Source of the DNA: Rhodovibrionaceae bacterium
Lineage (GTDB): Bacteria > Pseudomonadota > Alphaproteobacteria > Kiloniellales > DSM-21159
Length of the DNA: 38,195 bases
Reading direction: 5' to 3'
Assembly (NCBI GenBank): GCA_028282405.1
Contig: JANQIA010000059.1
Span: 1-38,195, forward strand
The position numbers and the translations under genes are program-made. Numbering within the stretch: position 1 is the first letter of the stretch; every line of letters begins with the position of its first letter. The notes beneath the pieces were generated by a model. The model worked only from the letters and a program-made list of their open reading frames with translations, was not told the origin of the DNA and did not search any database. Below are positions 3,175 to 18,543 of this stretch, one piece after another.

Positions 3175-4221
<1,047 letters not shown>

Positions 4222-4325
4222 GCTAAATCAAAACTCTCTCTGACGCCGTATCGGATGGTGGCTATTCAGGCGCACGCGTTGCGCTTGAGAACGCCATGAT
4301 GGCCGCAAAGGTTCGGATTGGGCCG

Positions 4326-5024
4326 CTAGGGCGCTACTCTGAAGATTTGGGGCGGATTGGAGTGGAGCCGGATGTAGTCCACGCGGTCGCCGTTCCAGTG
4401 GTAGTCATAGTGGTTGCCCTGGACGGGGATGCCGGCCACGTCAGGCCAAAAGATGCCGATGCAGCTGCCGGTATCGCAGCGGACGCTCGGATAGACGACC
4501 CCGTCGCTGCCGGCGTTCCTGAGGCTCGCTCCTAGATCCTGAGCGGCAGAATAGTCGTCGGGATCGAGCACGCCTGGCGCATCTTTCACGTCGTGCAACT
4601 CGGCATCGATTTGGCCCATGAGAACGCGGAACTGAGATGTCCAGCCCGGCATCTCGTCGGTCGCGGCCATGGTTCGGGCGTGATGGTGGGCGGTCTCGGC
4701 GATCGCGGCCTCTTCGCTGTCGCTGGCGTAGTAGAGACCATAATCGCCGCGCGAAAAGCGGCTCGGACAGCGGCGCGAGCAGTGAACGAACGGCGCCATC
4801 ACGAGTGACGCTCCTGGTCCCGAAACGCGCCGGTCGATGGGGACCTTCGAGAGATCGCCATGGCTCTGAATGGCGCGTGCGTTGAGTTTGGCCTCGGCCG
4901 AGGCGACGGCTTCCCAATCCGCCGGGTCGGCGATGTCTTCGAAGAGATCGATCGGTGGGAAGATCGAGCGGATGATGCGATAAGTCCGGTCCCACCGCAC
5001 CTGCACCGTCGGCGGCAGGATCAC
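4326..5024 (-). CDS. RES-domain protein, probable toxin of a RES/Xre toxin-antitoxin pair
   Basis: RWDRTYRIIRSIFPP...GDYGLYYASDSEEAAIAETAHHHAR...SDGVVYPSVRCDTGSCIGIFWP resembles the RES family. It overlaps the upstream antitoxin-like ORF by 4 nt (ATGA). Confidence 0.85.
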   Translation of the reverse strand: MILPPTVQVRWDRTYRIIRSIFPPIDLFEDIADPADWEAVASAEAKLNARAIQSHGDLSKVPIDRRVSGPGASLVMAPFVHCSRRCPSRFSRGDYGLYYASDSEEAAIAETAHHHARTMAATDEMPGWTSQFRVLMGQIDAELHDVKDAPGVLDPDDYSAAQDLGASLRNAGSDGVVYPSVRCDTGSCIGIFWPDVAGIPVQGNHYDYHWNGDRVDYIRLHSNPPQIFRVAP

Positions 5025-5431
5025 AGACCGCGCTCTGCCGCCAAATAGTCGCGGACGTCGAGGAGGTCGGTGATCTCGCCGCGCAGCATGATGTCGAGCG
5101 CACTCGCGCCGCCGAAGGCTGCATTCGCCTTACGGACCCAGCCATAACCCCGCTGCGGTTCGCGAAAGAGGTAGTGGAGGCCCTTGTGGACCCCCATCAG
5201 AATCGCCATGCGTGAGCGCCGGTCGCGCGGGATCTCACCGATCTCGCCGCGCTTCCAGCGGGCCCAGGTGCTCGTCGACATTTCGCCGAGGAGTGTGCAA
5301 GCCTCGGCGTCCCGCAGCCCCCATTTTGCGAACAGGTTCACGGTTGTCCGAGCGAGGGCACGCGCTTCCTCGTCCGTGATCCGGTCAGTGCCGTACCCCG
5401 CAGACGTAGCATCGATTGATTGGAGACGCAT
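5021..5431 (-). CDS. MbcA/ParS/Xre-type antitoxin
   Basis: 136 aa with an Xre-like N-terminal helix region (FAKWGLRDAEACTLLGEMSTSTWARWKRGE) and a C-terminal region (NAAFGGASALDIMLRGEITDLLDVRDYLAAERGL) typical of Xre/MbcA/ParS toxin-binding domains. Translationally coupled to the RES ORF. Confidence 0.85.
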   Translation of the reverse strand: MRLQSIDATSAGYGTDRITDEEARALARTTVNLFAKWGLRDAEACTLLGEMSTSTWARWKRGEIGEIPRDRRSRMAILMGVHKGLHYLFREPQRGYGWVRKANAAFGGASALDIMLRGEITDLLDVRDYLAAERGL

Positions 5432-5463
5432 GTCAGAAGACCTTTTTCCTTATCATATGACAC

Positions 5464-5492
5464 TATATAATATTTATGAAGTCACTTGACAA
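5464..5492 (-). promoter_or_regulatory. Candidate promoter of the RES/Xre operon
   Basis: Minus strand reads TTGTCA-N17-TATATA (TGACAA at 5487-5492 and TATATA at 5464-5469 on +), in an AT-rich island about 35-60 nt upstream of the antitoxin start. Confidence 0.5.
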
Positions 5493-5653
5493 TGATTTGC
5501 TCTCGGCCATTGCGTCGCTCGGCCCTCTTCCTGCCGCGTGAAACACTCCTGGTTGAGGCCTGTAAGGAGAGTGGGAAACGCGCCATCGACAGTGCGAAGA
5601 ACCAAGCTCACCTCTCTAGATATCTCCGGATCGGCTATCGATAGGGTTTAAGT

Positions 5654-5751
5654 CTTCGTTCACCACTATGCGGCGATTCTTGCGCAGAGTCCGCCTGGCT
5701 AGGGGGCGGACCGCCGTGTCCGTCAGCCCTGCTGACACTCCGTGAACGAAG
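5654..5751 (+). promoter_or_regulatory. Candidate structured 5' leader with several hairpins enclosed by a long-range closing helix
   Basis: CTTCGTTCAC (5654-5663) is perfectly complementary to GTGAACGAAG (5742-5751). It encloses GTCCGCC/GGCGGAC (5689-5695/5705-5711) and GTCAGC/GCTGAC (5722-5727/5731-5736), plus a weaker TGCG/CGCA (5669-5672/5683-5686). The closing helix abuts the SD GGAGGG. Confidence 0.5.
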
Positions 5752-5759
5752 GAGGGATC

Positions 5760-6101
5760 ATGCATCCCAAGCTCGGCGACAAGCTCGCAACTCCGGGCAA
5801 GCCGCCAATGGCGGCGGCTCAGCCGAACGCCGCCGCCGGCGACGAGGCCGCGACGATCAGTGACACCGCCCTGGTGCAGGCGGTTCACGCGGTCTATCGC
5901 GGCGACACCGATCGTCATCTCGGCCTCTTGCGACAGTCCGGTCTGCTGGCCGGCGCAGTGGCCGGCAAACGCGTGGGCTCGAGCGTCAGCTCAGCCGCTC
6001 CGTTGAAGGCCGTGCCGAAGGAACCCAACAAGCAGCCTAAGCCGTCCGGCAAGAGCGAAGTGGCGCGGCGCATCCAGAAGGCGCTTTCCTTCAGCTTCTA
6101 G
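5760..6101 (+). CDS. Uncharacterised small protein, about 113 aa, Ala/Pro/Lys-rich
   Basis: ORF MHPKLGDKLATPGKPPMAAAQP...SEVARRIQKALSFSF. A GGAGGG SD lies immediately upstream of ATG 5760. No family recognised. Confidence 0.55.
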   Translation: MHPKLGDKLATPGKPPMAAAQPNAAAGDEAATISDTALVQAVHAVYRGDTDRHLGLLRQSGLLAGAVAGKRVGSSVSSAAPLKAVPKEPNKQPKPSGKSEVARRIQKALSFSF

Positions 6102-6210: not shown

Positions 6211-7416
6211 ATGGAAGAAACCCTCAAGATCGAGAATGGGCCGAAGGCGCCCGCTACCTTCTCTCAGGCGGAGATGGAGCGGCGGGTTGCCGGGCTGAGA
6301 AATCTGCTTGAAGAACAGCAGCTTGACGCGGCGTTCTTCACCTCAATGCACAACATCGCTTACTACAGCGACTTCCTCTACTGCTCCTTCGGGCGGCCCT
6401 ACGGCCTGGTGGTCGGTGACGGCACGCACAGCACCATCTCGGCCAAGATCGATGGCGGCCAGCCCTGGCGGCGCAGCTTCGGCGACAATCTGGTCTACAC
6501 CGACTGGCAGCGCGACAACTTCTATCGCGCGGTCCGGAGCCTGCTCGGCAGCGGCAAGCGCCTCGGCGTCGAGTTTGATCATATGACCCTGGAGGCCCGC
6601 GCCAAGCTGGAGGCGGCCCTGCCGGGGGTGGTCCTGACCGACATTGCGCCTGCGGTGATGCGCCAGCGCATGATCAAGTCGCCGGAAGAGCATGTCATCA
6701 TTCGCGACGGTGCCGCGGTGGCGGACATCGGCGGCTGGGCAGTGGTCGAGGCCATGGGCGAGGGCGTGCCCGAGCACGAAGTGGCACTGGCCGGCACCGC
6801 GGCCATGACGCGGGAGATCGCCAAGCGCTATCCCCACTCGGAGATTCGCGACACCTGGGTCTGGTTCCAGTCCGGCCTCAACACCGACGGCGCGCACAAT
6901 CCCGTCACCACGCGGCCTCTGGAAGCCGGCGACATCCTGAGCCTTAACTGCTTTCCCATGATCCAGGGCTACTACACCGCCCTCGAGCGCACCCTCTTTC
7001 TCGGCCATGCGAGCGACGCCCATCTCAAGCACTGGGAGGTCAATTGTGAGGTCCACCGCCGCGGGCTGGAGCTGATCAGGCCCGGCGCCCGCTGCTGCGA
7101 CATCGCCGCCGAGCTCAACGAGATCTACGCCGGCCACGATCTGCTGCGCTATCGCAGCTTCGGCTACGGCCACTCCTTCGGCGTGCTGAGCCACTACTAC
7201 GGCCGGGAAGCGGCCTTGGAGCTGCGCGAGGACATCCAGACGGCGCTAGAGCCCGGCATGGTGGTCTCCATGGAGCCCATGATCACCATTCCCGAAGGTC
7301 AGCCCGGCGCCGGCGGCTACCGCGAGCACGACATTCTGATCGTGACGGAGGCGGGCGCGGAGAACATCACGGGATTTCCTTTCGGCCCAGAGGATAACGT
7401 CATCGCTCTGCGATGA
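6211..7416 (+). CDS. Creatinase (creatine amidinohydrolase), M24/aminopeptidase-P fold
   Basis: Strong recalled similarity to Pseudomonas creatinase: FFTSMHNIAYYSDFLYCSFGRPYGLVV, IDGGQPWRRSFGDNLVYTDWQRDN, WVWFQSGLNTDGAHNPVTTR, DILSLNCFPMIQGYYTALERTLFL, YRSFGYGHSFGVLSHYYGREA, EPGMVVSMEPMITIPEGQPGAGGYREHDILIV. Confidence 0.93.
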   Translation: MEETLKIENGPKAPATFSQAEMERRVAGLRNLLEEQQLDAAFFTSMHNIAYYSDFLYCSFGRPYGLVVGDGTHSTISAKIDGGQPWRRSFGDNLVYTDWQRDNFYRAVRSLLGSGKRLGVEFDHMTLEARAKLEAALPGVVLTDIAPAVMRQRMIKSPEEHVIIRDGAAVADIGGWAVVEAMGEGVPEHEVALAGTAAMTREIAKRYPHSEIRDTWVWFQSGLNTDGAHNPVTTRPLEAGDILSLNCFPMIQGYYTALERTLFLGHASDAHLKHWEVNCEVHRRGLELIRPGARCCDIAAELNEIYAGHDLLRYRSFGYGHSFGVLSHYYGREAALELREDIQTALEPGMVVSMEPMITIPEGQPGAGGYREHDILIVTEAGAENITGFPFGPEDNVIALR

Positions 7417-10667: not shown

Positions 10668-12287
10668 ATGAGCGCCGAAATCGTTTCCAGCCAAACCAAG
10701 ACCAGCGTCGATCGCGACGCCTTCGCCGACTACGCCCGCCGACCGAGCGAGGACGGCTACGTCCGCATCTTCGACACCACCTTGCGAGACGGAGAGCAGG
10801 CGCCCGGCTGTTCCATGAACCTCGAGGAGAAGATCCAGGTTGCGGAGATGTTGGAGTCCTTGGGTGTCGACATCATCGAGGCCGGGTTTCCAATTGCTTC
10901 GAACGGCGACTTCGAGGCGGTCAGCGAGATCGCAAAGCGGGTGAAGACCTCCCAGGTCGCCGGTTTAGCCCGCGCGACGGAGAAGGACATCAATCGCGCC
11001 TGGGAAGCCTTGCAGCATGCGGCCGCCCCGCGCATCCACACCTTCATCTCCACCAGCCCGCTGCACATGAAGTACAAGCTGCAGATGGAGCCGGATGCCG
11101 TCCGCCAACGCGTCATCGACAGCGTCTCCATGGCGCGGAACTTCTGCGAGGATGTGGAGTGGTCTCCGGAAGACGGCACCCGCACCGAGCATGATTTCCT
11201 CTGCAGCTGTGTGGAAGCCGCCATCAAGGCCGGTGCCTCGACCATCAACATCCCGGATACGGTCGGCTATACGGTGCCGGAGGAGTTCTACGCCCTCATC
11301 GACATGCTGATGAACCGGGTGCCGAACATCGACCAGGCGGTCATCTCGACCCACTGCCACAACGACTTGGGCCTGGCGGTCGCCAATTCCTTGGCGGCGG
11401 TGCGGGCCGGTGCGCGGCAGGTCGAGTGCACCATCAACGGCATCGGCGAGCGGGCCGGCAACGCGGCCATGGAAGAGATCGTCATGGCCTTGCGCACGCG
11501 CCCCGATGCCATGCCCTACACGACTCGAATCGAATCGACGCACATCACGCCGGCGTCCCGGCTCTTGTCGACGATCACCAGCTTCTCGGTGCAGCCCAAC
11601 AAGGCCATCGTCGGGGCCAATGCCTTCGCCCACGAATCGGGCATCCACCAGGACGGCATGCTGAAGAACGCTCAGACCTACGAGATCATGACGCCGGAGT
11701 CGGTCGGCCTGCACCGCTCCAGCCTGGTCATGGGCAAGCACTCCGGCCGCCATGCCTTCAAGGCAAAGCTGGAGGAGTTGGGCATCGCGCTCAACGACAA
11801 CCAGCTCAACGACGCCTTCGTGCGCTTCAAGGACTTGGCCGACCACAAGAAAGAGATCTTTGACGAGGACATCATCGCCCTCGTGGAAGACGCCGCTCTG
11901 CGCCACAACGACGTCATCAAGTTCGTTTCGATGCATGTGAACTGCGGCAGCCACGGGCCGAACGTGGCCGACATCGCCCTCGACGTTCAGGGCGAGCGCA
12001 AAGAGGTGCGTGCCGAAGGGCAGGGACCGGTCGATGCGACCTTCGCGGCGATTCGCGAAATCGTCCCGCATGACGCGAGTTTGCAGCTCTATCAGGTGCA
12101 TGCCGTGACCGGCGGCACCGATGCGCAGGCAGAAGTCACCGTGCGCCTGGAAGAGGACGGCAAGTCGGTGAACGGGCAGGGTGCCGACTACGACACCTTG
12201 GTCGCTTCGGCGCGTGCTTACGTCAACGCTCTCAATAAGTTATTGGTAAAGCGAGAGAAAACAGCGCCCGAGGCAATGACGGCCTGA
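10668..12287 (+). CDS. leuA: 2-isopropylmalate synthase
   Basis: [44 protein letters not shown]...[39 protein letters not shown]...HESGIHQDG, with a C-terminal regulatory domain. SD AGAGGAG at 10653-10659. Confidence 0.96.
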
Positions 12288-12339
12288 CGCTGGAACGCTG
12301 CGCCGGCCGAACGCAGGCGGGCGGGAAACAGGATTGATG

Positions 12340-12376
12340 GGCCCGTGCGGCTGTGGCTGCACGGGCCTTCTTTCTG
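12340..12376 (+). terminator. Rho-independent terminator after leuA
   Basis: GGCCCGTGC-N10-GCACGGGCC followed by TTCTTTCTG. Confidence 0.88.

Positions 12377-18467: not shown

Positions 18468-18543
<76 letters not shown>

Follow-up and report, generated by a model that had tools for sequence, protein, structure and literature searches.

The window analysed here, a stretch of DNA of 38,195 nt, is one contig of a draft genome. On its + strand lie ilvC (ending at 4221), a candidate structured RNA leader (5644–5774), an orphan open reading frame (ORF) of 113 amino acids (5760–6101), basic by residue count, and a gene for an M24 metallopeptidase of the creatinase/prolidase type (6211–7416). The ORF was searched for in 101 relatives and 64 genomes of the order, as well as in plasmids, viral contigs and the contigs of GTDB genomes; only two credible relatives emerged, both from MAGs: L005, from the same-genus relative G001 (82% amino acid identity), and L006, from G058 (93%). 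Both carry the same leader, and in both the gene order is ilvC, leader, ORF, M24, with the leader 42–54 nt past the ilvC stop; the ORF is followed by the M24 gene in each of the three genomes. The spacer separating the leader from ilvC does not align among the three genomes, unlike the leader itself.

Between ilvC and the leader, a window-specific segment (4220–5639), which belongs to the context outside the RNA, carries a RES/Xre toxin-antitoxin pair on the − strand (4326–5431). This segment of approximately 1.4 kb stands in place of the spacer of approximately 54 nt found between ilvC and the leader in the same-genus relative. It ends 5 nt before the leader domain, and the homology of the three leaders starts at 5639–5640, beside the outermost predicted helix. 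No intrinsic terminator was found between 4150 and 7600. In the L006 locus (contig C25 of G058), ilvC (3821–4840) is a mosaic, similar to other Pelagibius genomes over its first two thirds and to the window's genus in its last quarter and everything beyond. Such a pattern would be explained by recombination or by a chimeric contig in the MAG.

Judged on patterns of substitution, the 113-aa ORF is a real gene: comparison with L005 gave a dS of 0.55 and a dN of 0.11 (dN/dS 0.19), and of the 59 differences 33 fall at third positions, consistent with purifying selection. The earlier description of the ORF as uncharacterised was borne out, as Pfam returned no match, NCBIfam a sub-threshold match only and a profile search of the PDB no match, and the confidence of an AlphaFold model (mean pLDDT 58.8) was too low to support a search by fold. 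The start codon can be placed at ATG 5760, because L005 carries one extra base between the Shine-Dalgarno (SD) sequence and the ATG, which puts the alternative GTG at 5742 out of frame. An antisense ORF (5616–5918) was set aside since it is the + frame that is under purifying selection. Orthologues of the M24 gene in G012 and G015 apparently lack the ORF, as judged from their flanks. Further copies of the leader were found neither by DNA search, nor by a search for the pattern of its closing helix in 386 genomes of the class, nor by a covariance model run against 119 relatives. One match in G127 (L010) was rejected as a 31-nt stretch lying apparently in coding-like sequence, and an origin of the leader in a repeat family was likewise rejected, there being one copy in the genome.

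In the predicted minimum free energy (MFE) fold, the leader domain comprises 47 pairs and takes in codons 1–5 of the ORF. Its outermost helix, P0, pairs GGGTTT (5644–5649) with AAGCTC (5769–5774), the latter being codons 4–5. Within it, helix P1 joins 5653–5663 to 5742–5752, the 3' arm covering the AAGG of the SD sequence AAGGAGGG (5749–5756), which is identical in the three genomes. A 5-bp start hairpin (GGGAT-CATGC-ATCCC, 5754–5768) presents the ATG in its loop, leaving A5753 as the sole SD base between this hairpin and P1. In the prediction, these three helices meet in a three-way junction that covers the start site. P1 in turn encloses a hairpin, GTCAGC-CCT-GCTGAC (5722–5736), and an inner arm (5668–5719) built from an 8-bp pairing (5668–5675/5712–5719), a small hairpin (5678–5680/5686–5688) and a further stem (5689–5696/5704–5711).

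Part of this architecture had been anticipated by the earlier note, which drew attention to a perfect 10-bp complement, CTTCGTTCAC (5654–5663)/GTGAACGAAG (5742–5751), enclosing GTCCGCC...GGCGGAC and GTCAGC-CCT-GCTGAC and ending in the SD ahead of ATG 5760. All of these elements are present; P1 and both stems appear in the predicted MFE fold, and P1 closes on the SD there. For a weaker TGCG/CGCA element the letters are present but the pairing is absent from that fold, its place being taken by the 8-bp pairing. The structure is larger than was described there: the note had neither the hairpin around the start codon nor P0, which reaches into the coding region.

The stretch 5640–5775 folds with an MFE of −55.5 kcal/mol (z = −2.3 against shuffles), and the domain falls among the best 6% of GC-matched windows (26 of 453). 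A perfect 10-bp inverted repeat is not rare enough to prove much by itself: the window contains 17 overlapping instances, where random sequence of 38 kb has 8.6 on average. It is the preservation of pairing in a diverged relative that sets the domain above chance. It should also be considered that the inner arm can refold around a 6-bp hairpin (5675–5680/5686–5691) compatible with all three sequences. The two inner-arm folds have similar predicted energies in the window (−54.1 and −51.6 kcal/mol), and in L005 the MFE structure has the refolded arm, unlike that of the window. As P1 and the start hairpin stay closed in both predicted folds, and a state freeing the SD was not found, the alternative hairpin gives no account of release.

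Preservation of pairing was assessed on three sequences (the window, L005 and L006), of which L006 adds little since its leader is 98% identical to that of the window; all 47 pairs are kept in it. For L005, a structure derived solely from the window was checked against the 18 positions at which the two differ, the null being the same changes placed at random on the same bases: 46 of 47 pairs were kept, with one broken against 5.4 expected (P = 0.0016–0.0018). Applied to 228 aligned 131-nt windows from the same two genomes, the test gave the leader domain the joint lowest P (0.0033, 600 draws), a value somewhat favoured by the choice of the test window for its good folding, the control windows being evenly spaced. 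The reverse test, in which a structure derived from L005 was checked on the window, gave P = 0.017, and the inner region without the outer helices gave P = 0.055. Overall identity of the leader to L005 is 86%, compared with 57–76% at four-fold sites of neighbouring genes, and falls inside the range of other intergenic stretches (approximately 72–91%).

The character of the substitutions bears on which strand is folded. All nine transitions at paired sites remain pairable (as G-U, A-U or G-C), all six of those arising from Watson-Crick pairs yield G-U and none A-C, and 46 pairs are kept in L005 on the + strand against 38 on the − strand, which makes an RNA from the + strand likelier than a DNA palindrome or transcription of the − strand. 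The predicted folds of all three sequences share P0, P1 and the start hairpin. In P0, L005 has A-U at two pairs that are G-U in the window, with one change in each arm, including a synonymous change of codon AAG to AAA that turns U-G into U-A; P1 is unvarying save for its terminal pair (U-G to C-G); the start hairpin changes from U-A to U-G in L005; and in the hairpin at 5722–5736 the stem is invariant and changes are confined to the loop. On the covariation that the earlier note proposed to examine, pairing is preserved in a relative, but no pair is changed on both sides and covariation in the strict sense is not seen, with 11 further pair types represented in the three sequences. The control of 228 windows picked out a second region of unusually well-preserved pairing at 12184–12375, upstream of mreB (12503), with P = 0.003 at 12244; it lies between leuA and mreB and may be a terminator or a structured leader.

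We regard the leader as probably cis-acting, of a known general kind (control of translation) and restricted to very few genomes. The specific reading that we favour, whose chances we consider evenly balanced, is that 5644–5774 forms a structured + strand RNA which limits translation initiation of the 113-aa ORF. P0 would join the upstream leader to codons 4–5 and so close over the start site, the 3' arm of P1 would occupy the AAGG of the SD, and the start hairpin would occupy its GGG whilst presenting the ATG in a loop. We infer that the RNA folds in this way in the cell and lowers translation and, from its layout, that some factor opens it; this factor may be a ligand, a small RNA or a protein that binds RNA, for which the basic product of the ORF is a candidate. 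Of the earlier note's proposal, a conserved and structured leader that closes on the SD of a genuine ORF is supported; the thermosensor and the competing helix that accompanied it are not.

How far such a structure demands a regulatory explanation depends on what is ordinary in this genome. Composition-driven folding could cover the SD by chance, with no regulatory role, as part of the usual structure of GC-rich start sites. Predicted occlusion of the start site is high, but of the 20 genes in the window three (RES, M24 and leuA) need more energy to open theirs and ilvC needs about as much, which puts the ORF no higher than fourth; strong start structure is thus common in this GC-rich genome, as are chance 10-bp inverted repeats. 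We nevertheless consider this explanation somewhat unlikely, given that pairing in the leader is preserved beyond chance, to a degree jointly the best of the 228 windows, and that the G-U changes are polarised towards the + strand. An RNA acting on mRNA processing or stability between ilvC and the ORF-M24 genes would fit the position of the leader in both relatives, so close past the ilvC stop; its helices, however, lie over the SD, the ATG and codons 4–5 and not in the spacer, and this role is very unlikely. Translational coupling has been weighed on account of a 25-codon upstream ORF (5668–5745, + strand, ATG or GTG start), whose TGA stop lies inside the 3' arm of P1, such that a terminating ribosome would open the helix. 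Its frame and stop are retained in all three sequences, but retention of frame is uninformative because that stretch contains no indel; the upstream ORF has no SD, its start codon sits inside a stem, and comparison with L005 reveals seven replacements after the start codon against three silent changes, making coupling highly improbable.

Release by a metabolite or by heat raises different difficulties. A riboswitch of a new class controlling access to the SD would be in keeping with the multi-branch domain, its closing helix overlapping the SD and an inner arm with two folds of similar energy. Rfam, in agreement with the previous impression that no known riboswitch class was recognisable, gave no match for 5440–5800 at gathering threshold or up to E = 5, and across the whole window only a tRNA (18468–18540) reached its gathering score. 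Yet the leader was found in three genomes only and has no broad phylogenetic spread, neither inner fold opens P1 and no SD-exposing alternative is evident, there is no double-sided covariation and nothing links the leader to a ligand. The competing helix that might have supplied a switch, GTGTC (5716–5720)/GACAC (5734–5738), can be read in the window but is broken in the relatives, because the base at 5718 differs in each of the three sequences (G, C and A), leaving C-C and A-C mismatches; a metabolite riboswitch is accordingly quite improbable. An RNA thermometer, the other possibility raised by the first reading, would share the sequestration of the SD in a stem, but prediction leaves the SD core approximately 93% or more paired at 50–60 °C (the terminal base of P1 and A5753 excepted), which speaks against melting, and Rfam gave no ROSE match; we find this reading scarcely credible.

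By analogy, the closest kinds of system to the start-site control that we favour appear to be translation-controlling leaders of the S15 type and translational riboswitches. The S15 leaders (PMC4137082) are diverse, lineage-specific and part of the autoregulation of ribosomal-protein operons; they are likewise structured beside or over the start of a small gene, and their RNA folds are lineage-specific, as here. The present ORF, by contrast, is no known ribosomal protein, its leader has no counterpart in Rfam, and binding by its own product is putative. In translational riboswitches, too, a multi-branch domain is closed by a helix that overlaps the SD, but they have a known aptamer and an alternative fold that frees the SD, and the present leader was found in three genomes only. 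ROSE-type thermometers also hold the SD in a stem near the start codon; here the long, perfect P1 is not predicted to melt in the physiological range. A bolder version, in which a leader-coding three-way junction enclosing an orphan start codon, opened by its own product or a ligand, constitutes a new and lineage-restricted class of cis-regulatory RNA, we consider unlikely.

Were start-site control to prove mistaken, the locus would stand as an example of how often GC-rich start regions mimic regulatory RNA. If it is correct, this lineage would possess a structured leader in which coding sequence of the regulated gene itself helps to close the start site, attached to a gene of unassigned function that adjoins a metallopeptidase, and the leader would help to show under which conditions this orphan gene is required.
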